The notes: generated from the letters alone by a model not told the origin. Positions 14,957-30,330 are shown, counted from the first letter of the stretch. The stretch is DNA of 34,895 nt from Planctomycetia bacterium (GCA_009937185.1 JAACCY010000063.1:1-34895), one strand, 5' to 3'. Numbers and translations are program-made.

Positions 14957-15577
14957 ATGAGAAATAAACAATCGGGATTCACTCTTGTCGAACTTCTTGT
15001 CGTTATCGCCATCATTGGTGTTCTCGCTGGAATGGGAAGCCAGATGATGGGGTTTTCAATTCGTAAGGGTGGAATTTCTGCTGCAGAGTCAGAAATTCAA
15101 CGTTTGACGCTGGGCGTAGAGTCCTTCCAGTTGGATTACGGTGATTATCCTCCGTCCTCGATGGAGGACGAATACGAAGTTACAGGAAACCGATTGGACA
15201 GCGGGAATGAGAGCATGGTTGCTCATCTCGCTAGCCGAGCTCGGGGTCGATCTTATTTTGAATTTAAGGAAGAGTATCTGGATAATCTCGATTCAGACAT
15301 CCTCGCCAATGACATGGTAGAGCAAATGAGTTGGGTCTTCGGTGACAACCAACTGCGTGAATATTTGGACCCTTGGGGGAACCCGTACGTTTACATTCAT
15401 AATCGTGATTATGGACGTGAGTTTTCTGTCAGTCAGGAAGGTGTTCCTGTGATGGTTATTTCTGGCACATCTACTAAAACAGCTACATTCCATGAGCCTA
15501 TTCGGTTTCAGATTTGGTCTGCCGGCCCGGATGGCATTCACGAAAATGGAAAAGGGGACGACGTTTCCCAATGGTAG
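14957..15577 (+). CDS. GspG-like major pseudopilin
   Basis: A 206-residue prepilin-like protein. MRNKQSG|FTLVELLVVIAIIGV gives a class III prepilin leader with cleavage after Gly7, Glu at mature position 5 and the long hydrophobic helix. DYGDYPPS and the C-terminal DPWGNPYVY and AGPDG blocks are typical of GspG, where this region binds calcium. It is longer than the ~145 residues of classical GspG because of an insert (about 75-120) between the two blocks. It should form the shaft of the pseudopilus. ATG 14957 follows the preceding stop directly. The prepilin peptidase needed is not encoded in the window. The next pseudopilin overlaps its end by seven bases. Confidence 0.9.
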   Translation: MRNKQSGFTLVELLVVIAIIGVLAGMGSQMMGFSIRKGGISAAESEIQRLTLGVESFQLDYGDYPPSSMEDEYEVTGNRLDSGNESMVAHLASRARGRSYFEFKEEYLDNLDSDILANDMVEQMSWVFGDNQLREYLDPWGNPYVYIHNRDYGREFSVSQEGVPVMVISGTSTKTATFHEPIRFQIWSAGPDGIHENGKGDDVSQW

Positions 15578-16962
15578 TGAACAGACCTCAATCCTCAATT
15601 GGTGTGACATTAATCGAGCTTCTCATCGTGATGTCTATCCTCATGCTTGTATTGGGAATGTCGGTTTCTGTATTCCGATCATTTGGAGAAGGCCAAACTC
15701 TTGAAGTCTCCGCGAGTCGTGTTTCTAGTGCAGTGAGAGCCGCAAGAAATTGGTCCATTTCCACAGGGATGCCCAGTCGTGTCCTCGTCGATCCGGACGC
15801 ACGAAAAGTGACAGCATTTGGATTTGATACCGTAGCTGCATGGGATTTCGAAGATTTAGCATCTCAGCCCCAAACACAAGAGCTCCCTTCTGGTTTTGAA
15901 GTTGAAGGTGCATTTCGACAAAAAGCGCGTGTTACGGGACATGTTGAAACGGATTCTGGTTCAGTCGGGAGTGGGATTTTTTTCATCAATGATGGTGCAG
16001 CATTGCAGTCCGATTGGCTTCCTAGATATCGCGTCGATCGCGGGTTTTCGGTAGAAGCCTGGGTGCAGTTTTGGCAACCGGAATGGCAACCTGAGGACGG
16101 AATCGAGCCCACGGGTGGTTTTAGTGATCCTCGAAGAGAAATGCGACTTGCGATCATGAGTTCTCCGGGAGCTTTTGAAGTGGGCTTACTCGCTGACGGT
16201 TCCGTCTACCTCGAAATCGGGGATCCCAAAGGGGCGATGGATGAGGAATTCTTTCGCGCTCAAACCGAATCTCAGAGGGTTATTCCCGATCGTTGGACAC
16301 ATATACGGGCCACTTTCGACGGAGTCTCCATCGTGATAGAGGTCGATGGAGTTGAGCATGAATGGTACCCCGAAAATTTTGAATGGATCGTTGAGGAAGA
16401 TTGGCCACCTTTGCCAAGCTCTGTTCCTCCAGTCGATAGTGATTTGTACATCAGTCATCCGGCTCGATTCTTTTTAGGCGGGCTGGATCAGATCGTATTA
16501 CGATCAGCGACGGATCCTGAAATTGTAGAAATGCCGCTCGATGTCGAATTGCTAGGTTCGCCTCAACTGATTTACATCAATGGGAATGGATCTCTCAATC
16601 AGATTGAACATGATTTACCCGTTGTGATTCACGTAGCAGAAGTGGGCGACGTTGCGGATTTAGAGTTGGTGGATGGCACCTCTGTTTCTAAAGAGTCTTT
16701 CCGGGATCAGATGTCCCGAAAGAAGAAAGAACGTGAGGATCAGCAAGGAAAAGTGGAGGAAGCCTTCGGTAGTCCTATCGGTGACTTGATGAGTTATCTC
16801 GAAGATTGGCAATCCACTTCAGAAGACGGGGAAGAGGTGGAAGATGTTTATCTGTTACCGCTCTCTCCTGGGCAGCATTTTGGTATAGGTGAGGTCGATG
16901 AGCACACTGTATTGAGATTGCACAATGTTGTGATTGATTTGACGGGAGCTATCCGTGGTTAA
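15571..16962 (+). CDS. GspH-like minor pseudopilin with LamG-like domain
   Basis: A 463-residue pseudopilin. The leader ends SSIG|VTLIELLIVMSILMLVL: cleavage after Gly11, Val in place of Phe at +1, Glu at +5. The next segment (VSSAVRAARNWSISTGMPSR) is like GspH/FimT. From about residue 100 to 250 it has a concanavalin-like LamG fold signature (FSVEAWVQFW, DRWTHIRATFDGVSIVIEVD), absent from normal GspH proteins of ~170 residues. The C-terminal part has an acidic helix (MSRKKKEREDQQGKVEEAFG) and a closing beta pair. ATG 15571 lies in the end of gspG; the frame extension to 15514 has no ribosome binding site. It overlaps the next gene by eight bases. A carbohydrate- or surface-binding role for the LamG part is inference. 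Confidence 0.85.
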   Translation: MVVNRPQSSIGVTLIELLIVMSILMLVLGMSVSVFRSFGEGQTLEVSASRVSSAVRAARNWSISTGMPSRVLVDPDARKVTAFGFDTVAAWDFEDLASQPQTQELPSGFEVEGAFRQKARVTGHVETDSGSVGSGIFFINDGAALQSDWLPRYRVDRGFSVEAWVQFWQPEWQPEDGIEPTGGFSDPRREMRLAIMSSPGAFEVGLLADGSVYLEIGDPKGAMDEEFFRAQTESQRVIPDRWTHIRATFDGVSIVIEVDGVEHEWYPENFEWIVEEDWPPLPSSVPPVDSDLYISHPARFFLGGLDQIVLRSATDPEIVEMPLDVELLGSPQLIYINGNGSLNQIEHDLPVVIHVAEVGDVADLELVDGTSVSKESFRDQMSRKKKEREDQQGKVEEAFGSPIGDLMSYLEDWQSTSEDGEEVEDVYLLPLSPGQHFGIGEVDEHTVLRLHNVVIDLTGAIRG

Positions 16963-19900
16963 AGAGTGCTATCAAACTAAGCCCGAATCCGGAATGGCAT
17001 TGTTGATGGTTGTACTCGTATTGGCAGCCTTGACTGCCATCGGTACGCCCTTTCTTGTTTCAATGAGATTGCAGGAAGCCGGATCTGCTAAATCTCTTGC
17101 AACTCACAAGGCAAGATTGGCCGCAAGAAGTGCACGCGATCATGCTGTGAGTCATTTATTCGATACTCATCATAGTCGTGAACGTGATTTTTGGGAGCCA
17201 GGGGCAAACGCTGGGGATCTTGTCGACGATCTCGATGAACTTCAGGTTTCATTTCCTGATCAGGCAGAAACAGAATCATTAGATAATACGATATCCTCCG
17301 CTCTCACAATGAGAGGTGCCGGAGACCGTATATTGGACGCCCGTGTTATTGACGAACAAGGCAAGGTGAATATCAATACCGCCATGCCGAATTTGGTGGG
17401 AAACCTTCTGGCTGGAAGCCATCTATCGGAGAACATCGCATTTGATCAGGAATTAGAAATTCTTCCTCTTGATGATACGAGTATGTTTCCTGCCGACGAC
17501 GATCCTGACTCTATTGATGGAGTTGTCGTTATTCTTAACCCACTCTTTTTTACGACCGAGGCTGTTTCCTATACTGGTAAAACTGCACAAGGATTGACCG
17601 GAGTTTTTCGTGGTCAATACATGTCTGGTACTTGGGAGCATCAAAAAGGCTGGCCCGTTTTCGACATTCGTGGTTATAAAACGTTTTTGCATCGACTTGC
17701 GAATCTTTCTGATGGAGAGATCGCTAGCTTCAGAACACCGCTAGGCATTCGACAGATATCCGATTGGTCAGTGGTGCCGTATTTCCTTCAAACTTTGGCC
17801 ATCGTTGGATTGAGTATGTCGAATATGGCCGATTGGGGTTTGACCCCTGAGATGCTAGTTCGAGCTGGATTAGATCCATCGATTCTTGCTCGAGAACCGG
17901 AAGAGGTTGACGAACAAGAATATCGAGACGCTCGTAAAAAGTTTCTCGATGTAGGAATCCCAAGAGAGGTGATTGACCTTGTTGAGTCGGTCAGAGGAAA
18001 AGCCGGTGTTATTGAAGCCTCGGATTTGGTCGAGCAATTTGGTGGAGTCGACAAGGCTCGTGGCAACGCTTTTAAAGGTGTTTACCAGACCTTTATTGCT
18101 CCTCAAATTAAGCGCGTTCAAAGTCAGAGTAAAAAATATTTCCCGGGTGCTGTTGCAGCATATCAAGAAATCTATGACCTCCCTGATATGGAAACGATAT
18201 CTGCGGGTGAGTTCGAAAAAATTAGAGAGTACATCACGACCAACTCAACATTGCCGAGAGATTGGTCGCAAGAGCAGATGGTCGAAGGAGAGATCTCCAA
18301 CAGCGCTCTTTTAGGCGTTCCTCAAATGCGATTGCCTCGTTATGATTTCTTCAATCCAGGCACTGTGGTTCGCATCCGTAGTAACTCTGACCCCAATAAA
18401 TTTGAATACGGTTTGGCTGCTGGCGCATTCCCGACACCTCGTGGCGGTTTTCGGGGAGGTGGTCGAGGTAGCATTTTTCAAGGCGGAGTGATCCTTAAGG
18501 AACCGCTGCGATATGAATGGGCGGAACGGGAAGCGATGGTCAGTGCTGCTTTACGCCATCCTGTGAATATTAATACCGCTCCAGCTCGAGTGATTCAGGC
18601 TGTCTTGACGGGGATCAGTACGACTAGATTTGGTCGAAACTTTAACTCTGTAACCGTTGAAGAAGCCCGGAAATTGACAGAACGTTTGATGGCTGAAATG
18701 CCGATCGAAGGTTTTGAGGAATTACGAACCATCGTAGAAGCGGCACAATTGTCAGGGGATTTAGACGGACAAGATTCTTCTGCGATATTGATTAATGCAT
18801 TGAATCCTAATAATCCGAGGCTCTCCGTATCCACGACATGGTTTTGCTACAGTACCAATGAGATTTATACGATCGAGTCTACAGGTGTCACCCGTAGTCC
18901 TTCCGGTTTTCCTGAGGCAACGGTTCGTTTTCGTGAAGTGATAGAAGTCGCTCCACCCGAGTCTTTGTTTTTACGCTTGGAAACTCAGTTCGATTGGGCT
19001 TCCCAATATTTAACTCGAAATTCTGGCGGTCGATTCTTTACGGGATCTACAGCCTCTTTTGTCCCGGGTCGTGCTGCGAATCTGATGGTCACTGGGCCCG
19101 TTCCCATGAATGGACGGTTGTTCGCCGCTCCCTCTATGGACGAAGGAACATTAAGGGGGCTCACCCTGACGGTGCCAGAGATCAGTAATAATTGGGGATT
19201 TGGTCAGGTTGGACTTTTTGAAGTGGAAAGCTTCCCGAACACTATTGAGGGACGCGAATTGGAAGATGGCTCTTGGTCGCGAGGCACCTTTATAGAGTCA
19301 CAAGTGGCTATTCCAAATCCTTCGCCGGGTGGAGAATTTGAGATTGAATCAGGGGTGACAGACGCTCTTTCAACCGTTCCTGCTCTCGTAGAGTTTTGGT
19401 ATCGACCCCGCTGGGGATCTAGAGGGCAAAATCGGATTATTTTTGATATGCCTGGAGCTCAAGGAGAACCATGGCGAGATCGAATTCGACTCTTCTTTGA
19501 TAAAGATACTCAAGAATTGGTTTTACAAGTTTTCGATGAAACGGGATCAGCGCTGGCATGGGACTCGAGTTTTGCTCCTGCTGCCGAAATCCGTTATGCC
19601 GTAACTCCGAACTCTTTTGCTGACGATACTTGGTATCACATTTCAGCAGGTTGGCGATCCACGCGTCCTGGCGATTTGGTATTGTTGATTGATCGGAAAC
19701 CTGTAGGTAAGCATTCTTGGTTAACGCGATTGGCAGCTCCTGTCAGGACATCAGATATAGGTGCGTACCTCGAAGACGAGGATATTGTTGATCGTCTTCC
19801 CAACACAGGCACGTTGTTGATCGGATCGGAAGCCGTGGATTACTCAAAAGCAGATGGCGGGTCAGTAATTTTCCTTCCTGTCGGCTTTGACGAAACATTG

Positions 19901-22627
19901 CAGAGTACTCGTGGGAGACGAGGCACGATTCGCCAAAATCATCCAGCGGGGACTCCTGTTCGTTTATTGGGATATTCATTACCTTTGGCGAACTCCGACC
20001 CCAATCTTGGATTGGAAGATTCTTCACAACGCATCATTTTGGGTCCTGGAGGAGCGAGTCTTGCGTTTGACTTACAACCGACGCGTAGAATTGAAAGCAT
20101 CACACCTGCAGGCGCGGTGACGTTGGGTCCGTCCAGTTATGCTATCGCCGATACGACCGCTGCTTTTGTGATTCCTGGATTGACCAGTACTTTGGAGTTG
20201 GAACCCTTTGGGCAAACGTCGAACAGTTTATTGGTTCAGACTCAGGCTTCTCATCCCTTTGAATTAGGCTTCCCACCGCAGGGTTACATTCATATTCGTA
20301 AAATAGAACGGAATGCTGAAGGGGTCATGGTTCACACCCAGAGTGAATTTGCCAAATATTCTTCGATCACTCCGGGGCCGGTGGCTGGATTGTATCGATT
20401 CACTGCCATGGGGCGGGGATTACTCAACACCGATGCCATAGATGGAATCACTGGTACTCCTGGGGACGTACGTCTTACAGTGAGAGCCGTTTCTATAGAA
20501 GCGGCTGAAGGTGGTCTCGATGCGACCTATGCGCCTTCAGGCACGATTCAATTGACCCGTCCGAGGGGGAGTGAAGTCTTACCCGGGACCAATGTCGTCA
20601 ATGGTTTAGCGGGGCATCTTGGCGATTCCGAATGGATTCTCTACGATCGTATCGCTGAGGGCCGATTCTTTATCGTTGATCCAGATGCCCATGAAGTCTT
20701 TCGAGGCTACACCGGAAATCGATATGTCAGTATCGGAGATGCTTTTCGGCGCAACAGGCTGAGACCCGATCTCGATTCGATTCAGTTTGTTCAGGCTGGA
20801 ACAGAAATAATTCAAGTGGTACGTGGCGTGGGTGCGCAGGTCGCGCCGTATGACGCAGTCGTGCTGGGTGACGGGGCCGGAAATCCTATCAACCGCCAAG
20901 TGGAGTCACTCAAAATGCGAGTCCATAAGGTGAAGGAGACCGATTCTGGGGTCTATCTGAGTTTTTTAACTCCACCTGAAGGAACTTATCTCCCCAATCA
21001 GGATCCTCGAATCGGAAAATTCCCGACGGGCGGTCTTCCGATCACGTCATCGGGGACGATTCAATTTGGTGGTTCACCCATCGCCGGAGCCGAGTTGCCC
21101 GGCGTCGGAACCATTGATGAAGTTCGCTTTTCTAGACTGGATAGCACCGATGTGGAGAGTCATATCTTCCCCATCGGCTCCACGGGTTTGCAGTCCGTCG
21201 AGGTCGAATCTTCTCCCAACCTTCCTTCGGGAACCCGCTCTGAGGTTTTACGAACATTTTACAGAGAAGGGGACTCTGAGAGTTCCAACGGAGCCATCGA
21301 TCGTTTCAGAATCGTCGGTCGTTCACGTTTGATTACGAATTTTGGGCAAGGGGGTGGAATCAGTCGAAGCTTCAGCCCTTCTGATCCACGAAGTTTCGGA
21401 ATGGGCCTTAGAGAAGGTCTCCTGATGGTGGATGGCGAAGCGATGCATTACCTCTTCGATTCGGGGGAGGTCGAACCCCCAGTAGAAGTTCTATTGCAAC
21501 AGAACTTGGGTCGAGATCCTTTTCTTGACGAAGAGGCTTTGGATGCCGGAGTCGTCATTCCTTTCGACCCTCTTCGAGATTTGAGAAGTGAAGTCGTCCG
21601 TACCATTCAAGTGAATACCACGACGGGATTGCCCCCAAATGGAGGTTTCCTTGAGATCTTGTCCGGGACTTCAAGGGAAATTATTTACTATAGCAGTGCT
21701 AATGGTAATCAGCTGAGTAACGTCCTTCGGGGACAACTTGGAACACCTGTGAACGGATATGTATACCAGTGGAGTTATCTTCGTAATCAGGAGACTGTCG
21801 TCGTCACCAATACAATTCGCATGCGGCTTTTACCAACACGAGACGTCGATGTTTTGACACGTGGAATGTTGAATACAGCGAGGGGAGGTAACAGCCTAGG
21901 AGCCAATTCCTTGTTGCCTATTCCTGCGATCCCTGTTGGACGTTTGGCGGGTGGAAATACTGAATCAGAAATCCCCATGCTGGAAGATCTTCGGAACTTT
22001 CCAAATAGAGAAGGCTACTTCATTGTCGATGATGCGAATCCGGCTACTCCGGATGAAATCATTGCCATTGCAGGAAAAGTAGGGGGGTCATTCCGACTCT
22101 ACCGTGACGATAGAAGTGGGCGTGGGATTTTCAGAGGAAGATTCGGGACTCAAGTTCGCGACTTCGTGAAAGACACTCCTGTTGTCGAATTTATGGCAAG
22201 GCATCATGACCACTACCAACCCAGAGTTGAATCGAAAGATCTTCAATATTTGGAACGGGCATGGACAATGCCTGGAACAGTTTGGGATCGAATTTCTTGG
22301 GCTGTTGAAGAGAGTAGAAGTCGCAGAACCGCTGGAACTGTTCGTGTTCTGGCTCGTTTTGAAGGTGTTCCCTCTTGGGACTCAGAGCCTACGAACGAAC
22401 CCGGTGGACTTTACCTGTTCGACGATCCCGAAGGAGATAATCTTCTCGATATACTTTCCGATGCGATGGAGTTACGAATATTATTCCGGCATAGGGAAGG
22501 GGCTTACGGACCTCTTCCTGGTGGTGGTTGGAATGACGAATACAAGCACCTTCCTGTTCTACGCCAGTTCTCCATCGAGCATCGAAAAGAGTGGCGAGTA
22601 CTCCATCACGAGGAGATCCCTTTCTAA
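16955..22627 (+). CDS. Giant GspK-like minor pseudopilin with LamG-like and repeated beta modules
   Basis: An 1,890-residue protein, about six times the usual GspK length. The N-terminus has a prepilin-like leader MVKECYQTKPESG|MALLMVVLVLAAL and lacks Glu at mature position 5, as GspK does. GspK-type helix-hairpin-helix marks occur twice: DEQGKVNINTAMPNLV near 130 and NINTAPARVIQAVL near 536. A LamG-like domain lies near 800-930 (ALVEFWYRPRW, TWYHISAGWR, LVLLIDRKPVGKH). Much of the rest is built from a repeated module of the pattern GEhIxY...G.....RG..GT (first copy near 203, others in 950-1760). A Gly/Arg-rich patch (RGGFRGGGRGSIF) lies near 495. GTG 16955 has GGGAG (16944-16948) upstream. 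In type II secretion GspK caps the pseudopilus tip, so these domains would be displayed at the tip. Confidence 0.85.
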   Translation: MVKECYQTKPESGMALLMVVLVLAALTAIGTPFLVSMRLQEAGSAKSLATHKARLAARSARDHAVSHLFDTHHSRERDFWEPGANAGDLVDDLDELQVSFPDQAETESLDNTISSALTMRGAGDRILDARVIDEQGKVNINTAMPNLVGNLLAGSHLSENIAFDQELEILPLDDTSMFPADDDPDSIDGVVVILNPLFFTTEAVSYTGKTAQGLTGVFRGQYMSGTWEHQKGWPVFDIRGYKTFLHRLANLSDGEIASFRTPLGIRQISDWSVVPYFLQTLAIVGLSMSNMADWGLTPEMLVRAGLDPSILAREPEEVDEQEYRDARKKFLDVGIPREVIDLVESVRGKAGVIEASDLVEQFGGVDKARGNAFKGVYQTFIAPQIKRVQSQSKKYFPGAVAAYQEIYDLPDMETISAGEFEKIREYITTNSTLPRDWSQEQMVEGEISNSALLGVPQMRLPRYDFFNPGTVVRIRSNSDPNKFEYGLAAGAFPTPRGGFRGGGRGSIFQGGVILKEPLRYEWAEREAMVSAALRHPVNINTAPARVIQAVLTGISTTRFGRNFNSVTVEEARKLTERLMAEMPIEGFEELRTIVEAAQLSGDLDGQDSSAILINALNPNNPRLSVSTTWFCYSTNEIYTIESTGVTRSPSGFPEATVRFREVIEVAPPESLFLRLETQFDWASQYLTRNSGGRFFTGSTASFVPGRAANLMVTGPVPMNGRLFAAPSMDEGTLRGLTLTVPEISNNWGFGQVGLFEVESFPNTIEGRELEDGSWSRGTFIESQVAIPNPSPGGEFEIESGVTDALSTVPALVEFWYRPRWGSRGQNRIIFDMPGAQGEPWRDRIRLFFDKDTQELVLQVFDETGSALAWDSSFAPAAEIRYAVTPNSFADDTWYHISAGWRSTRPGDLVLLIDRKPVGKHSWLTRLAAPVRTSDIGAYLEDEDIVDRLPNTGTLLIGSEAVDYSKADGGSVIFLPVGFDETLQSTRGRRGTIRQNHPAGTPVRLLGYSLPLANSDPNLGLEDSSQRIILGPGGASLAFDLQPTRRIESITPAGAVTLGPSSYAIADTTAAFVIPGLTSTLELEPFGQTSNSLLVQTQASHPFELGFPPQGYIHIRKIERNAEGVMVHTQSEFAKYSSITPGPVAGLYRFTAMGRGLLNTDAIDGITGTPGDVRLTVRAVSIEAAEGGLDATYAPSGTIQLTRPRGSEVLPGTNVVNGLAGHLGDSEWILYDRIAEGRFFIVDPDAHEVFRGYTGNRYVSIGDAFRRNRLRPDLDSIQFVQAGTEIIQVVRGVGAQVAPYDAVVLGDGAGNPINRQVESLKMRVHKVKETDSGVYLSFLTPPEGTYLPNQDPRIGKFPTGGLPITSSGTIQFGGSPIAGAELPGVGTIDEVRFSRLDSTDVESHIFPIGSTGLQSVEVESSPNLPSGTRSEVLRTFYREGDSESSNGAIDRFRIVGRSRLITNFGQGGGISRSFSPSDPRSFGMGLREGLLMVDGEAMHYLFDSGEVEPPVEVLLQQNLGRDPFLDEEALDAGVVIPFDPLRDLRSEVVRTIQVNTTTGLPPNGGFLEILSGTSREIIYYSSANGNQLSNVLRGQLGTPVNGYVYQWSYLRNQETVVVTNTIRMRLLPTRDVDVLTRGMLNTARGGNSLGANSLLPIPAIPVGRLAGGNTESEIPMLEDLRNFPNREGYFIVDDANPATPDEIIAIAGKVGGSFRLYRDDRSGRGIFRGRFGTQVRDFVKDTPVVEFMARHHDHYQPRVESKDLQYLERAWTMPGTVWDRISWAVEESRSRRTAGTVRVLARFEGVPSWDSEPTNEPGGLYLFDDPEGDNLLDILSDAMELRILFRHREGAYGPLPGGGWNDEYKHLPVLRQFSIEHRKEWRVLHHEEIPF

Positions 22628-23712
22628 TGAAAAAAAGTGAAGCTGGATTAACTCTCATTGAAATTCTCGTCGCTCTGGGCATTTTCATGATGCTGGGATC
22701 CAGCTTGGTGATGTTCCTTCGTGATGGAATGTCGACTTGGCAAATTGGAGAATCGCGTCGAGAGGCATACGAACGCGCTGGAGCTATCATGGATTTGATA
22801 GGGGAAGATCTTCGTTCTTCCTTTACGCAATCAGATCCTGGTCCAGACAACGGCCTCGTTGACGTCTTATTGCTCTGCGATACCGATGGTTTTAATCGGC
22901 CTCGACTTCGTTTAGTGAGGACCCTGTCTGACGAGACTCGAAATCCTGTGACCAGAATAGCAGGGTCTTACACCGGCGGACTCGCAGAGGTGGATTACCG
23001 CAATGATTCCCAAGAAGCCATACTAGGGATACTGAGAGCTCCGGGTGGGCTCGCTGAAGTCGCGTATCTCATGGGACCGGAATCAGGGTCCGAAGTTCTT
23101 TGGAGAGGAATGAAGTCACCCATAGGGGGAGAGTCCACTCTATTTGACGTGGCAAACCTTCTCCCTGATGTCGATGGTATCCCGATGCGTTCTCGACCCG
23201 TAGCCGACGGAGTGTTGTATCTCGCTTGGTCATTTTGGGGTGGAGATCGTCGACGTTGGAGTGACGGTAAGTCGCAGCAGGCGCTGCCGTATTGGGATTC
23301 CACGCGAGGCATCCTTGAGCCCTCCGCGGACTCAGGAATCGCTTGGGATGCGAGAAGCCGCGATCGTCATGAAGATGACGTCTTCCCGGATACTGCAGAA
23401 ATATTGCTCGTCCTGAATCCTTCAAGATCACGGGCATTGGCCAGACTCACTACTGATATTGGTGACGACGACGATGTTTTGATTCTCGATAGTGTGAATG
23501 AATACTCCACAAATGGTCAGCTTCATATCCGTCTGGATTCGGAGTGGATTCTTGTGGGCGAGATAAAGGGCAACAGTTTTGTGGATTGTCAACGTGGTGT
23601 CCGGGGGACACAAGCTGCTGAGCATTTACGAGGAACTCGCGCCGTGAGTGGAACTGAGTTTCGCCGAACGATTCGTATCCCGGGTTACCGTGACGCAAGG
23701 GGGCCAAGATAA
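22627..23712 (+). CDS. GspJ-like minor pseudopilin
   Basis: A 361-residue pseudopilin with leader MKKSEAG|LTLIEILVALGIFMMLG (cleavage after Gly7, Glu at +5), followed by a GspJ-like region (YERAGAIMDLIGEDLRSSF) and beta-rich body (DGVLYLAWSFWGGDRRRW). Near the C-terminus is one copy of the module repeated in the neighbouring GspK-like protein (EWILVGEIKGNSF...QRGVRGTQAAEHLRGT). Classical GspJ is about 200 residues, so this one is enlarged. ATG 22627 overlaps the previous stop by one base; GAGGAG lies upstream. In the minor pseudopilin tip complex GspJ contacts GspI and GspK, which are its direct neighbours here. Confidence 0.85.
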   Translation: MKKSEAGLTLIEILVALGIFMMLGSSLVMFLRDGMSTWQIGESRREAYERAGAIMDLIGEDLRSSFTQSDPGPDNGLVDVLLLCDTDGFNRPRLRLVRTLSDETRNPVTRIAGSYTGGLAEVDYRNDSQEAILGILRAPGGLAEVAYLMGPESGSEVLWRGMKSPIGGESTLFDVANLLPDVDGIPMRSRPVADGVLYLAWSFWGGDRRRWSDGKSQQALPYWDSTRGILEPSADSGIAWDARSRDRHEDDVFPDTAEILLVLNPSRSRALARLTTDIGDDDDVLILDSVNEYSTNGQLHIRLDSEWILVGEIKGNSFVDCQRGVRGTQAAEHLRGTRAVSGTEFRRTIRIPGYRDARGPR

Positions 23713-24164
23713 TGGTCTCTCTTGAACATTCTCATGATCCTATTGTCCAAAGATCCGATTCTGGATTTTCACTTCTTGAAGTCATCGTTGCTTTAGGAAT
23801 ATTGGCGGTGGGTGTGGGGGCAGCTATTTCATTGTTTACAGCAGGGACTGCTGCTCACAGTCGTGCTATCGACCGTTTGAAAGCGATCGAAATCTCAGAG
23901 TCAGTTTTCGCTGCGATTGAAGGCGCTTTGAGAGACGGTGCGAACATCGAAGATATACAAACGAGTGATTTGATCCCGTCAGTATTGAAATCATGGCCAG
24001 GAGTGAAGAGCGAAATCGCTTTTTCGACGATTCCGAAGCCGGACTTTGTGGATGAAGTGGTCATTCGATTGAGTATTCGATGGATCTCTCGTGGTCAGCA
24101 GGCCGAAGAGAACTTTGAGCAGATCATTGCTCGATCAAGAAGTGTTCGATTGCTTCCCGAATAA
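23712..24164 (+). CDS. GspI/PilV-like minor pseudopilin
   Basis: A 150-residue prepilin-like protein with a long leader of 18 residues ending SDSG|FSLLEVIVALGILAVGV, with Glu at +5. The rest is short: a helix (HSRAIDRLKAIEISESVFAA) and a small beta sheet (DEVVIRLSIRWISRG), fitting GspI, the partner that nucleates the tip. ATG 23712 overlaps the preceding TAA by one base, with AAGGGGG 8-14 bases upstream. It is the last gene of the 18.6-kb operon; the convergent holA stop is directly adjacent with no room for a terminator. Confidence 0.85.
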   Translation: MVSLEHSHDPIVQRSDSGFSLLEVIVALGILAVGVGAAISLFTAGTAAHSRAIDRLKAIEISESVFAAIEGALRDGANIEDIQTSDLIPSVLKSWPGVKSEIAFSTIPKPDFVDEVVIRLSIRWISRGQQAEENFEQIIARSRSVRLLPE

Positions 24165-25280
24165 TTAAGCCGTGAGTATGGCTCGCTCGAGGAGTTCCTG
24201 AGGGGTGGGGCCCGCTCCACTTTTCATTTGCCAGTCCATTTCAATAAGAGACGCAATGATTTTTTCAATTCGGGCTTTATTGCAATGCCTGAATTGCTTC
24301 CTGATCCGTGGGAGAAAAGGCCTCGCGATTCCCGTTTCTGCAAGAATCTCAGCCTCTTTTCCACCTTTTTCAACAATGGCGTGTACTGCGCGCAATTCAC
24401 GGGCTCGTTTTAGGGCCATCGCAGAGCATTGAAGCATCAGTCCCTGTGGGTTTTTGACTCTTTGGTCCTTCTCGTCTAGCCAGCCCGTTTCCAGCATATT
24501 TGCTAGCAACTCAAGAGCACCAGATCGATCATTTTCAAACCAACGATCTACCAAGTCAAAGGCACTTCCGTCGCCGCCCGACGGTGTTTGTTCGAGTACG
24601 ATTTCCTCGTCAACGATTTGAGTCTTGTTCGCATCGGATAAGAGTGAAATCTTCTCTACGGTACTCGCGAGAGGAGCCATGACCGGACCGAGTCTGTCGA
24701 TCAAGATCTGAGCTGTCTCAGGTGCGATTTGTAGGCCCTTCTGACGGAACCTGTGAACAACCCAGTGATTCATGTCGTGATCCCACGGTGAAGCGTCAGG
24801 TTTCCAGGGTGGAGGTCTGTGAAACGGCCTGTCGGCGCTAATCCACCATCCTGTTGTCTTGAGTAGCTTTGCGATCTTTGAGCGACCGTCGAGGGATTTT
24901 GCACGCAATATTAATAAACTGTTCCCTAATGATTCAGCAAGAATCCTGCCCCATGCCTCTGGATCCAGTTTGAACCAACGATCGGCATCGTCGATGACCA
25001 CGACGGGAGTTCCTCCGAAGAGACTGGGTGTTCTGAGTTCGTCGAAGATATCGCGGAGCTTATCCTCGTCAGGTTTGACCTGGGCACCGATTTCGTGGAT
25101 TTGATCTTTGTCTGGTGCTCCTCCAGAAAGTTTCTCAAATATCAGATTACGGGCTTCTCGTATTAACAGATCTTCTTTACCGACGATCACAGCGACACTT
25201 GGAAACTCGCGATCGAGTTTTTTTGCCAAAGTGGCCATCGTTAATGCTGCTGAAGTTTTTCCAGTTCTTTTCTTGGACAT
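24165..25280 (-). CDS. holA: DNA polymerase III subunit delta
   Basis: A 371-residue clamp-loader delta subunit. Recognisable features are the N-terminal AAA+-like part (SVAVIVGKEDLLIREARNLI), FDELRTPSLFGGTPVVVIDD around 85-105 (the delta signature that places the clamp-opening loop), and the helical collar domain (SAFDLVDRWFENDRSGALEL, LQCSAMALKRARELR). It opens the beta clamp during DNA loading. ATG 25280 is chosen as the first ATG; no good ribosome binding site precedes it, and the frame stays open to 25409, so the start is moderately sure. The extension would overlap the riboswitch region on the opposite strand. The end abuts the pseudopilin operon tail to tail. Confidence 0.85.
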   Translation of the reverse strand: MSKKRTGKTSAALTMATLAKKLDREFPSVAVIVGKEDLLIREARNLIFEKLSGGAPDKDQIHEIGAQVKPDEDKLRDIFDELRTPSLFGGTPVVVIDDADRWFKLDPEAWGRILAESLGNSLLILRAKSLDGRSKIAKLLKTTGWWISADRPFHRPPPWKPDASPWDHDMNHWVVHRFRQKGLQIAPETAQILIDRLGPVMAPLASTVEKISLLSDANKTQIVDEEIVLEQTPSGGDGSAFDLVDRWFENDRSGALELLANMLETGWLDEKDQRVKNPQGLMLQCSAMALKRARELRAVHAIVEKGGKEAEILAETGIARPFLPRIRKQFRHCNKARIEKIIASLIEMDWQMKSGAGPTPQELLERAILTA

Positions 25281-25324
25281 ATGTATGAGTTTCAACTGCG
25301 AAGAGAGAATTACAACCCATGATC

Positions 25325-25352
25325 TTGACTCCCCATAATGATGCCATAAACT
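25325..25352 (+). promoter_or_regulatory. Candidate sigma70-type promoter for the riboswitch transcript
   Basis: TTGACT (25325-25330) and TAAACT (25347-25352) are spaced by 16 bases. This places a start site near 25360, about ten bases before the P1 stem of the cobalamin aptamer. The match is 5/6 and 4/6 to the consensus. The position relative to the aptamer supports it. Confidence 0.5.
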
Positions 25353-25369
25353 TCCTTTTTTCAAGGATT

Positions 25370-25552
25370 GACCCGGGAGTTCCGGGTCGGAAGTGTGGTG
25401 AAAATCCACCGCGGTGCCGCCGCTGTAACCGGGGACAATCCCTGCATTCTGACATTAGGTCGTATTCCTGATAGTCAGTAGCCACTTTGATCGAGAGATC
25501 GAGGGAAGGCGCAGAGGAGAGGTTGATCCGGAAGTCAGAAGACCTCCTTGAA
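25370..25552 (+). promoter_or_regulatory. Cobalamin (B12) riboswitch aptamer
   Basis: Conserved cobalamin-riboswitch elements appear in order: GGTGAAAATCC (25398-25408), GCCGCCGCTGTAACCGG (25417-25433), GCCACT (25480-25485), GAGGGAAGGC (25501-25510) and the B12 box GAAGTCAGAAGACC (25531-25544). The closing P1 stem is visible: TCAAGGA 25371-25377 pairs perfectly with TCCTTGA 25545-25551, extended by T25370-A25552. An early hairpin GACCCGG/CCGGGTC lies at 25380 +/- 10. Binding of adenosyl- or other cobalamins normally represses the downstream gene. The gene following is a secreted beta-propeller protein, not a known btuB or cob gene. Confidence 0.93.
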
Positions 25553-25561
25553 GATGATGGT

Positions 25562-25590
25562 CCTTTTCACGCCCCGAGCAGGGCAAAGGG
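25562..25590 (+). promoter_or_regulatory. Expression platform hairpin pairing the ribosome binding site
   Basis: CCTTT (25562-25566) pairs with AAAGG (25585-25589) and GCCC (25571-25574) with GGGC (25581-25584), enclosing a six-base loop. The AAAGGG paired here is the ribosome binding site of ATG 25598. This is what a translational 'off' state of a B12 riboswitch looks like. GACC (25541-25544) in the B12 box could instead pair with GGTC (25559-25562), a possible competing structure. Confidence 0.65.
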
Positions 25591-25597
25591 TTTTGCT

Positions 25598-26992
25598 ATG
25601 CGATTTTCATTCTTCCATTTTCATGATCCATCCATCTCCGACGTTCTGACATATCGGCCCTTCCCGATTCTTTTCATAGTCATGTTGGCATTGCTGCCGG
25701 GCTTAGATGCTTCGTTATTCGCTCAGAATACAAACGCGACGATTTCTCTGTCGATCCCTGAAAGTTTGGTCGATGCGCATCCGTACAGGATTGTCAGCGC
25801 TCCAGGTGAGGAGTTGGGATATGTCAGCCTTTCCGGGGACGTGACACCCTTTGGTGAGGCTGTCGAAGATTATGCGAATAATCTGATCCAAGAAATTAAT
25901 CTGCACACTTTAGAAAAGGTCCGCGTTTTCCAGGTAGGGTTCTTCCCTACTGAAATGGTGATCGTGGGTCAGCAACTTTTCGTCACGTGTTCCAATGATA
26001 ATTCGCTGTACTCCATCAACTTAGACACTTCGAACGTCACGAGTTTCCCTATGACAGATTCTTCCGGAGCGGACGTATCATTTCTTTCGGGGATTGTGGA
26101 AAGTCCAACGGGTGAAATCTATGTGGGATCCAATGGCGGAAATTTCGACGGTTCTGATGAAAATGTTATCGTTTTTGATCCTGTGTCACAGTCGATAGTG
26201 GGTCGTTTAAATGTACCTGGAGCCATCACTCGTTTTTCTTGGCACAATAATCAACTCGTGATTCCCGTCGGATATCCAGATAATGACTTCTCTGCCGCTC
26301 CTGTGTTGCGCTGGATCGATCCCGTCACAAGTATGGTGACTGCTGAGTTGCCGATATCTGTAGATACTTCCGATTTCCCAATGCCTTCCGATATCACCTC
26401 TCTTGGGGACGGCACGGCGGCTTTAACCGTCATCGGTGGAAGTAATGAAGTGTTCCATATCGATTTGGAGAGCCAGACCTTACTCGGTAACTGGACGCTT
26501 CCCGGAACAGACTATTTACAAAGTCGGGTACTGCCGTTAAACGACAACACTCTTGTGGTGGCAGACTTTATCGATGGAGTTCTGCATCAGATTGATCTGG
26601 CGACAGGCGACATTGAGACCTTTGCCTCCGGTTTGCAGCTTCCCGTGGACATGCATTTACGTGATGGCCGTTTGTTCGTCGCTGAGCAGGCTCTTGAGCA
26701 GCTGAGCGTTTTTGTTGGTCCGGGTGGTTTTATCCGAGGAGACGTCAACAACGATCAAATGATCGACATTAGTGATCCGATAATGTCTCTGGGGTATCTG
26801 TTTTTGGGCGGTGATTTAGCTTGCCAAGATGCCGCTGATTATAATGATGACGAATCTCTCGACCTTTCAGATGCGATATCTTTGCTCGAGTTTTTGTTTT
26901 CTATGGGGGATTCCCCAGCATATCCCTATCCTCTAGGCGGAGGTGATCTGGGTGGCGATGATCTGGATTGTGAACAGGGGCTTGATTTTTGA
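25598..26992 (+). CDS. B12-riboswitch-controlled secreted beta-propeller protein with dockerin-like tail
   Basis: A 464-residue exported protein. The N-terminus has a hydrophobic segment ending LPGLDASLFAQ, a signal peptide with a long n-region and no lipobox Cys. Residues about 60-370 contain YVTN/YncE-like beta-propeller blades (VRVFQVGFFPTEMVIVG.QLFVTCSNDNSLYSINL; LVVADFIDGVLHQIDLATGD). From about 377 to 464 it has two dockerin-like calcium loops (RGDVNNDQMIDISDPIMSLG; DYNDDESLDLSDAISLLEF). ATG 25598 has AAAGGG seven bases upstream; the frame extension to 25487 runs through the aptamer. Control by a cobalamin riboswitch suggests a role in acquiring B12 or corrinoids. In Bacteroides the surface beta-propeller BtuG binds B12; homology to BtuG cannot be judged by eye, so the function is inference. 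A second propeller gene follows 50 bases on. Confidence 0.85.
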   Translation: MRFSFFHFHDPSISDVLTYRPFPILFIVMLALLPGLDASLFAQNTNATISLSIPESLVDAHPYRIVSAPGEELGYVSLSGDVTPFGEAVEDYANNLIQEINLHTLEKVRVFQVGFFPTEMVIVGQQLFVTCSNDNSLYSINLDTSNVTSFPMTDSSGADVSFLSGIVESPTGEIYVGSNGGNFDGSDENVIVFDPVSQSIVGRLNVPGAITRFSWHNNQLVIPVGYPDNDFSAAPVLRWIDPVTSMVTAELPISVDTSDFPMPSDITSLGDGTAALTVIGGSNEVFHIDLESQTLLGNWTLPGTDYLQSRVLPLNDNTLVVADFIDGVLHQIDLATGDIETFASGLQLPVDMHLRDGRLFVAEQALEQLSVFVGPGGFIRGDVNNDQMIDISDPIMSLGYLFLGGDLACQDAADYNDDESLDLSDAISLLEFLFSMGDSPAYPYPLGGGDLGGDDLDCEQGLDF

Positions 26993-27042
26993 CCCCTCCA
27001 GAAGGCATCCTTTTTACGACTCTTGAACGGAGAATTCTCGCC

Positions 27043-28284
27043 ATGAAAATCTTGACATCTTTGTTGTTCCTTCTTTTCGTCGTTCAACCTGTTCAGGCGC
27101 AATCTGTCTGGTTTGGTAGCGACCTCGCTTTGTTGTCTATCGATGGTGATACGAGCGTTGTTTTAGACGACCTCGACAACTCTATTGAGTTGATCAGTCG
27201 TACCTCCGATGGCGGAGCATGGATTTATCTCAGCGAAAATACTTCTTTGCAACGAATCTCAGCTTCAGGAGACGTCTCGTTTTCTGTTCCCACTGAAACA
27301 GGTCTTGCAGCGATGGCTGTCGATGCGACAGGTGCTGTGTGGGCAACTCGACCAGGAATGAACGACGTTATCCGCATTGCTCCTAGCAGTTTTGAAGTTT
27401 CGAGTTACCTCGTTTCCGGTGTTCCGCATGGCATCACTGTTGACGGCTTAGGTCGAGTTTGGGTGACCTGTTCATATTCTAATGAAGTACAAATACTTTC
27501 GACGACGGGTGAAATCCTACAGACGATACCTGTGGGTTTCTTTCCGACTGGCATTTCTGCAACACATGACTTTGGTGTTTGGGTTGCAGAAAAGCAGGGT
27601 TTGCGTCGTCTCGATTCTGCAGGCAACTCGGTATGGTCGGATGTTGCAGGAATCTTCCCGATAGGCGTGACCACCGATACTTCAGGCCGAGGCTGGTTTA
27701 CCTGTCAAGTAAGCCACCAGGTTGTCGTCGTTTCTGATCTCGGTATCGATATGATCATCGACGTTCCCGCGCGTCCTCTAGGCGTCGCTGCTCATGTTGA
27801 CGGTTCAGTTTCTGTTCTTTCACGTTTGGGCGCGACCATCAGTCGGATCGCAGGGACGGGTGAGTTGTTGAGCTCACACTCCACCTCTTACCCAACGGGT
27901 AAAGGCGATCTCTCTGGAATCCAATTGGCGACAGTCGTTGCGCCAACATTGGATTTCGACGAAGACGGAATTACAAACCAAGCAGAAGTGTTCGCAGGTA
28001 CGAATCCTTTCGTCGCCACGCAAATTGAGTTTGTCCGCGGAGACGTTGATCGGGATGGTTCGATCGCGTTAGCGGATGCCCTGCTTTCTATGGAGATCTT
28101 GTTTTTGCAGGAGTCGACAGATTGCCTAGAGGCCCTAGACGTCAATGACGATTGCTCATTGGATCTTGCTGACCCCATCAGAATCCTGGGCTATTTGTTT
28201 CTTTCTGACAGTCCGCCAGAATCTCCATTTCCGGAATACGGCCCTGATCCCACGCCTCAGGGGGGATTCTCCTGCAACAATTAG
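27043..28284 (+). CDS. Second secreted beta-propeller protein with dockerin-like tail
   Basis: A 413-residue exported protein with a clear signal peptide MKILTSLLFLLFVVQPVQA|Q. Residues about 25-290 form beta-propeller blades of the Vgb/YVTN type (GVPHGITVDGLGRVWVTCSY, IPVGFFPTGISATHDFGVWV, DVPARPLGVAAHVDGSVSVL). Then comes a thrombospondin-3-like calcium motif (DEDGITNQAEVFAGTNPF) and a dockerin-like pair (RGDVDRDGSIALADALLSME; DVNDDCSLDLADPIRILGYL). ATG 27043 has CGGAGAA upstream; the TTG at 26989 overlapping the previous stop is less likely because the signal peptide starts at 27043. It has no riboswitch of its own and is probably co-transcribed with the first propeller gene, so it would share B12 control at the transcript level at least. 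The two proteins are paralogous in layout but diverged in sequence. Confidence 0.85.
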   Translation: MKILTSLLFLLFVVQPVQAQSVWFGSDLALLSIDGDTSVVLDDLDNSIELISRTSDGGAWIYLSENTSLQRISASGDVSFSVPTETGLAAMAVDATGAVWATRPGMNDVIRIAPSSFEVSSYLVSGVPHGITVDGLGRVWVTCSYSNEVQILSTTGEILQTIPVGFFPTGISATHDFGVWVAEKQGLRRLDSAGNSVWSDVAGIFPIGVTTDTSGRGWFTCQVSHQVVVVSDLGIDMIIDVPARPLGVAAHVDGSVSVLSRLGATISRIAGTGELLSSHSTSYPTGKGDLSGIQLATVVAPTLDFDEDGITNQAEVFAGTNPFVATQIEFVRGDVDRDGSIALADALLSMEILFLQESTDCLEALDVNDDCSLDLADPIRILGYLFLSDSPPESPFPEYGPDPTPQGGFSCNN

Positions 28285-30198: not shown

Positions 30199-30210
30199 CA
30201 AAACTTGATA

Positions 30211-30283
30211 CGACCCTGGCACGATTCGAACGTGCGACACCCGGCTCCGGAGGCCGGTGCTCTATCCACTGAGCTACAGGGCC
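30211..30283 (-). tRNA. tRNA-Arg (anticodon CCG)
   Basis: On the minus strand the cloverleaf is complete: acceptor GGCCCTG pairs with CAGGGTC (one G-U), D-arm GCTCAGTGGATAGAGC, anticodon arm CCGGC-CTCCGGA-GCCGG with anticodon CCG, variable loop, and T-arm with GTTCGAATC. Discriminator base G at 30211. CCA is not encoded. It reads the CGG codon of arginine. Confidence 0.95.
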
Positions 30284-30330
30284 ACTGATTTGCAAAGTTC
30301 AGCGATCCACTGATTGAGAATGAGGGATCC

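Follow-up and report, generated by a model that had tools for sequence, protein, structure and literature searches.

The closest described counterpart of the locus reported here is BtuG, whose homologues have been reported exclusively from Bacteroidetes (PMC6143338); in BtuG2, cobalamin is bound on a negatively charged face of the propeller (PMC10404256). A second group of secreted B12-binding proteins, DUF4465/BtuJ, includes a member from the planctomycete Mucisphaera that has been tested (PMC13398666). Riboswitch-controlled propellers in planctomycetes were not described in the literature that we searched. A sequence-only reading of the DNA analyzed here had proposed such an arrangement, namely, a cobalamin riboswitch in front of two tandem genes for exported YVTN/YncE-like beta-propellers with dockerin-like tails, and had taken the two proteins for planctomycete counterparts of BtuG.

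The window, i.e., the whole stretch of 34,895 nt that was analyzed, is one entire contig (C149) of a draft genome of 2.77 Mb (254 contigs, 87% complete). The host is a marine planctomycete whose near relatives are draft planctomycete genomes as well (in a named collection, e.g., TMED53, BS30m-G49, and UBA1146). The riboswitch, its leader elements, genes A and B, and the parts of gene A given below all lie on the plus strand. The complete aptamer ahead of the two genes was confirmed by an Rfam cmscan of the window with the cobalamin covariance model, a search that the sequence-only reading had called for: RF00174 was matched at 25347 to 25564 over model positions 1 to 189 of 189 with 70.2 bits, well over the cut-off of 31.5 bits (E = 1.5e-15), and the B12 box lies near 25480 to 25510. 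This is the sole RF00174 match in the draft genome. The riboswitch ends 33 nt before the ATG of gene A at 25598, and the intervening leader contains a hairpin, GCCC-CGAGCA-GGGC (25571 to 25584), that adjoins the ribosome-binding site, a Shine-Dalgarno-like AAAGGG read from the sequence at 25585 to 25590, 7 nt 5' of the ATG. Leaders were compared within the order of the host, which was sampled with 17 genomes from six genera and two families (f1 and f2). A CGNGCA loop between riboswitch and start codon was present in all 16 leaders and was closed by a stem of 3 to 5 pairs in 15 of them (chance, 1.3% per leader); the stem sequences vary between genera yet stay paired. Since a conserved, paired hairpin beside the ribosome-binding site is as expected of a translational expression platform, the hairpin is a probable regulatory element for translation control.

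The pairing of riboswitch and gene A is kept throughout the order. Exactly one RF00174 match was found in 16 of the 17 genomes, each just upstream of a single gene A orthologue. In the 17th (G003), gene B and the tail of gene A stand at the edge of a contig of 3,150 bp and the riboswitch site is cut off; a joint loss of gene A and riboswitch in this genome was rejected, because the contig ends inside gene A. Wherever the contig covers the site (16/16), the riboswitch lies directly ahead of the gene A orthologue. The genes flanking the pair are likewise conserved within the order. A HolA-like gene, its function read from sequence, lies on the minus strand at about 24165 to 25281, on the other side of the riboswitch from gene A. 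Farther upstream of the riboswitch, genes for type II secretion-like pseudopilins with prepilin N-termini such as GFTLVELLVVIAIIG are lined up over 14957 to 24164, in an arrangement that is syntenic order-wide, and a tRNA-Arg (CCG) gene is found on the minus strand at 30210 to 30284. With the entire neighborhood syntenic within the order, the association could be a by-product of conserved gene order without functional meaning. At the level of the phylum, this explanation is contradicted. The count of such riboswitches before such propellers in Planctomycetota, another check proposed at the outset, was made with a profile (A3) over 246 Planctomycetota genomes, in which full-length matches at E ≤ 1e-30 were counted. 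This gave 31 full-length homologues of gene A, no more than one in any genome and with 11 families represented; 10 of them belong to genomes of the order. A same-strand riboswitch lay upstream of all 31, a count that leaves out 15 weaker, partial matches (E of 1e-10 to 1e-16) to different proteins, most of which are larger. Among the full-length homologues, a regular lack of the riboswitch, part of what the sequence-only reading had named as evidence against itself, was thus not seen; outside the order, 20 of the 21 riboswitches scored over the Rfam cut-off and one (L236) reached 30.7 bits versus 31.5 bits. Between the riboswitch and the point where the propeller match begins lay 130 to 290 nt at 18 of the 20 loci measured and about 1.1 kb at the other two. 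No other gene of the window was found within the flanks examined at the 21 loci outside the order; riboswitch and propeller alone stay together in all 21 genomes, and since the two are the only shared context there, plain synteny is removed as an explanation. The pairing persists at divergence down to about 20 to 27% identity. With about one riboswitch per several-Mb genome, chance placement is estimated at roughly one in several thousand for each gene, and at this rate a 31/31 pairing is not accidental, even though the 31 homologues share descent and hence are not 31 independent events. The pairing of the riboswitch with gene A is not a matter of chance, and an accident of gene order is hardly credible. 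The view that the window holds an unusual stand-alone unit was not borne out either: the arrangement, 16/16 in the order and 31/31 in the phylum sample, is phylum-wide.

Gene A (25598 to 26992), an open reading frame whose orthologues lie behind the riboswitch, encodes an exported propeller of 464 amino acids with a dockerin-like tail. Its signal peptide region (residues 1 to 42; 25598 to 25723), read from the translation, has no lipobox cysteine, and neither has the signal peptide of gene B, which agrees with the earlier view that both proteins are secreted as non-lipoproteins. The Pfam signal of gene A alone is almost nil (DUF6923 with E = 0.0099; Dockerin_1 under the cut-off), and a search of PDB sequences with gene A by itself was discarded, as it returned weak matches only, mostly dockerins. 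From the alignment of 16 orthologues (A1), AlphaFold2 predicted a core (25724 to 26725) of seven four-stranded blades with a pLDDT of 93.8 and a pTM of 0.92; the assignment of the core as a propeller also draws on Foldseek and on a profile match. The comparison of the model with BtuG, which had been asked for, bore out the seven blades, but the fold is generic: Foldseek against the PDB returned propellers of all kinds, with BtuG2 plus cyanocobalamin (8PTF) at rank 44 (TM of 0.65). About 1,700 chains, of many propeller kinds, reached E ≤ 0.001, and Foldseek against the PDB was therefore dropped as a discriminator for gene A. The wider profile, A3, found as its best PDB match the archaeal YVTN surface-layer protein 1L0Q (5.6e-33), followed by hydrazine synthase beta, Lp49, YncE, BtuG2 (8PTF; 4e-8), and 3DSM (1e-5). 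The BtuG-type family PF16819 had no match in gene A in the Pfam search and was matched weakly by 3 of 14 members of the A family (best E, 2.8e-4). Since the profile score for 1L0Q is far better than that for BtuG2, gene A is, on sequence grounds, a propeller of the YVTN/YncE superfamily and not specifically a BtuG. The description of both products as exported YVTN/YncE-like propellers therefore holds for gene A, by signal peptide, fold prediction, and profile; gene B is exported as well, but its propeller is of the Vgb/NHL type by Pfam.

Conservation among the 16 gene A orthologues is concentrated on one face of the predicted propeller. Of 103 loop positions on this face (B-C and D-A loops), 26 are invariant, versus 3 of 51 in the loops of the other face (Fisher P = 0.004). 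The strongest face motif, SNGGNFDGSDEN (26129 to 26164), lies in the B-C loop of blade 3, and 10 of its 12 residues are invariant or nearly so. The loops of the conserved face contain 16.6% acidic, 0.7% basic, and 11% aromatic residues; because acidic residues are common in the loops of the other face too (18.4% acidic, 3.6% basic), the argument from charge is only modest.

Gene B (27043 to 28284) begins with an ATG at 27043, 50 nt behind gene A, and no terminator-like site was found between the two genes. By Pfam, its product of 413 amino acids is an exported Vgb/NHL-type propeller with a TSP3-like repeat and a dockerin-like tail; it scored 58.1 bits on Vgb_lyase (PF24684; cut-off, 50), and SGL and NHL models were also over their cut-offs. 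Against the curated VgbA and VgbB enzyme models it reached 27.6 and 33.1 bits versus 600, far below true Vgb enzymes. Gene B is present in one copy in each of the 16 genomes of family f1 and in none of the sister family f2 or the rest of the class. Since it is confined to one family, gene A is taken as the core of the system and gene B would be an accessory of that family. MetE replaces MetH when B12 is scarce, and on this model the propeller could be a secreted enzyme or other protein that is needed only at B12 scarcity, for example, a lactonase-like or corrinoid-processing one. Some homologues are weakly similar to lactonase and SGL models, and gene B resembles Vgb lyase. However, this similarity is that of the generic propeller repeat, and gene A matched no enzyme family in domain-model searches and has conserved motifs of its own; we consider such a function improbable.

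The C-terminal tails are less distinctive. The dockerin-like tail of gene A (26735 to 26989) scored 13.3 bits and that of gene B 18.4 bits on Dockerin_1 (PF00404), both below the cut-off of 22.9 bits; tails of relatives scored 25.9 and 31.4 bits. Every genome of family f1 (e.g., L034 to L046; genomes of 2 to 5 Mb) has at least 97 gene A matches, nearly all to the tail, and with so many similar tails per genome the tail is generic for these planctomycetes. Outside the order, gene A homologues have no dockerin-like tail and carry other C-terminal ends instead, and the tail was therefore rejected as a defining part of the system. Of the proposal that calcium-binding, dockerin-like tails take the place of a lipid anchor, the presence of such tails stands, but they are below the Pfam cut-off, generic, and replaced in homologues and so are not essential.

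The riboswitch is not restricted to gene A. It was found in 10 of 12 other genomes of the class, usually once, and at 10 of the 11 loci read there (one of the 10 is cut by a contig end) the next gene encodes a different secreted protein, about 415 amino acids long and with the same tail. Relatives of this second family in two further families outside the class likewise lie behind a riboswitch. Its core is a predicted propeller (pLDDT, 86.3) with Pizza and Vgb propellers as the best Foldseek matches. Profile-profile comparison with the A family gave a probability of 95.7% (E = 1e-8) for what are very divergent sequences, and common ancestry of the repeats may be all that the match reflects. In other parts of the phylum, the riboswitch lies ahead of genes for TonB receptors, BtuF/FecCD, and MetE-like, CbiK-like, and NrdJ-like proteins, as judged by eye, and it also stands before further propeller genes, DUF1559 pilin-like genes, and genes for PEP-CTERM proteins. 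A third propeller type, cytochrome D1/YncE-like and ending in NYCH, occurs at riboswitch loci L159, L191, and L240; at L159, a BtuF-like gene lies directly 3' of it. DUF1559-type pilin-like genes stand directly 3' of the riboswitch at L114, L117, L130, L138, L166, and L167 (one family) and at L193 and L195 (three families altogether). Small PEP-CTERM-type secreted proteins of about 225 to 270 amino acids are encoded behind riboswitches at L126, L128, and L193 (second open reading frame) and are possible further secreted B12 binders. Riboswitch-linked lipoprotein-like proteins of 470 to 610 amino acids without a Pfam propeller match were seen at L163, L173, L183, and L171. That the same riboswitch precedes DUF1559 pilin-like genes in another family, together with the secretion and surface-type tails of the propellers and an operon without an uptake gene, would suit B12-responsive surface or adhesion proteins that attach the cell to B12-producing algae, bacteria, or particles and whose partner is something other than the vitamin. 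We regard such a role as unlikely: it is the propeller face and not the tail that is conserved across lineages, and most of the other recognizable riboswitch targets in the phylum serve uptake or encode B12 enzymes.

Corrinoid capture presupposes a need for B12. Of 29 genomes of the class, 28 encode B12-binding domains, in reading frames sized as MetH and methylmalonyl-CoA mutase-type proteins. CbiC/CobH, which is needed for de novo synthesis, was absent from all 29 and was found in control genomes of known B12 makers. With B12-enzyme domains present and CbiC absent, members of the class look like B12 auxotrophs. As stated in the sequence-only reading, no btuB, btuF, or corrinoid enzyme lies within the 34,895-nt window, and no uptake gene was found in the operon of genes A and B; a BtuFCD-like transporter and B12-binding enzymes are encoded elsewhere in the genome. 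A FecCD permease was strongly matched in 16 of the 17 order genomes and, where read, adjoins an ABC ATPase and a BtuF-type binding protein, away from the single riboswitch. In a member of the window's genus (L254, 1486 to 3225), a single fusion protein of about 580 amino acids combines the ABC ATPase with the FecCD permease of the BtuFCD-like transporter. TonB plug domains are few in the order, with none in 5 of the 17 genomes; the receptors checked as BtuB candidates scored best against hemin receptors, all below the cut-off, and were rejected. The lack of a BtuB-like receptor match leaves no candidate for the outer-membrane step in the order genomes, but because these are drafts, the absences are soft.

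We think it fairly likely that genes A and B form a B12-scarcity operon in which riboswitch-repressed, exported propellers capture corrinoids for uptake via a BtuFCD-like transporter. At low cobalamin, the unliganded riboswitch would leave the gene A ribosome-binding site accessible, and both genes would be translated; binding of cobalamin would switch them off, probably via the CGNGCA hairpin. Export of both proteins would go through Sec, and the generic planctomycete tail would position them at the cell surface or beyond it; there, the gene A propeller may bind and concentrate corrinoids on its acidic, aromatic face. Uptake would be completed by the BtuFCD-like ABC transporter, and imported B12 would feed methionine synthase and methylmalonyl-CoA mutase-type enzymes. 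The putative role of gene A as a riboswitch-controlled extracellular propeller for B12 capture is strongly supported, because the pairing is found at every covered site of the order and with every full-length homologue of the phylum sample; gene A is probably a secreted corrinoid-capture protein acting like BtuG of Bacteroides. A wider proposal can be made more tentatively: secreted, riboswitch-controlled corrinoid-capture propellers of at least two divergent families may occur phylum-wide, with an origin separate from that of BtuG, interchangeable C-terminal ends, and, in some lineages, no dedicated BtuB-type TonB receptor.

If this is true, planctomycetes use secreted propellers of their own; this would account for the way in which bacteria that, in this class, are apparent auxotrophs obtain a scarce vitamin, and a family of unannotated proteins would gain a function. 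Extracellular B12 capture by propellers would then extend beyond the Bacteroidetes, so far reported as the sole holders of BtuG, and the riboswitch link makes the idea of capture directly testable. Like BtuG (BtuG2, BT1954, PDB 8PTF; 3DSM), gene A encodes a predicted seven-bladed, exported propeller under cobalamin-riboswitch control, with a conserved acidic and aromatic face, in a host dependent on B12 uptake. Unlike BtuG, it has no lipobox or lipid anchor, with a tail in place of the anchor; it has no btuB linkage (none in the window; 5/17 order genomes without a TonB plug); and its profile lies far closer to the archaeal YVTN surface-layer protein than to BtuG2. Judged by lipobox, btuB linkage, and closest sequence homology, gene A is no member of the BtuG family. 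What remains of the proposed BtuG counterparts is the riboswitch-controlled, secreted propeller with its conserved face; closeness in sequence, a lipobox, and a BtuB partner do not. Gene A shares superfamily and fold with the YVTN/YncE propellers (the surface-layer protein 1L0Q, YncE [3VGZ], and hydrazine synthase beta), but it carries invariant face motifs of its own, and we know of no cobalamin riboswitch in control of any of these three. Gene B is over the cut-off for the virginiamycin B lyase/NHL propellers (PF24684); unlike virginiamycin B lyase, it reaches 33 versus 600 bits, is secreted with a tail, and is part of a B12 operon. With the DUF4465/BtuJ proteins, gene A would share extracellular B12 binding, for which it is a candidate, and the link to a riboswitch (for BtuJ, in Bacteroides), but the fold is a jelly roll there and a propeller here.
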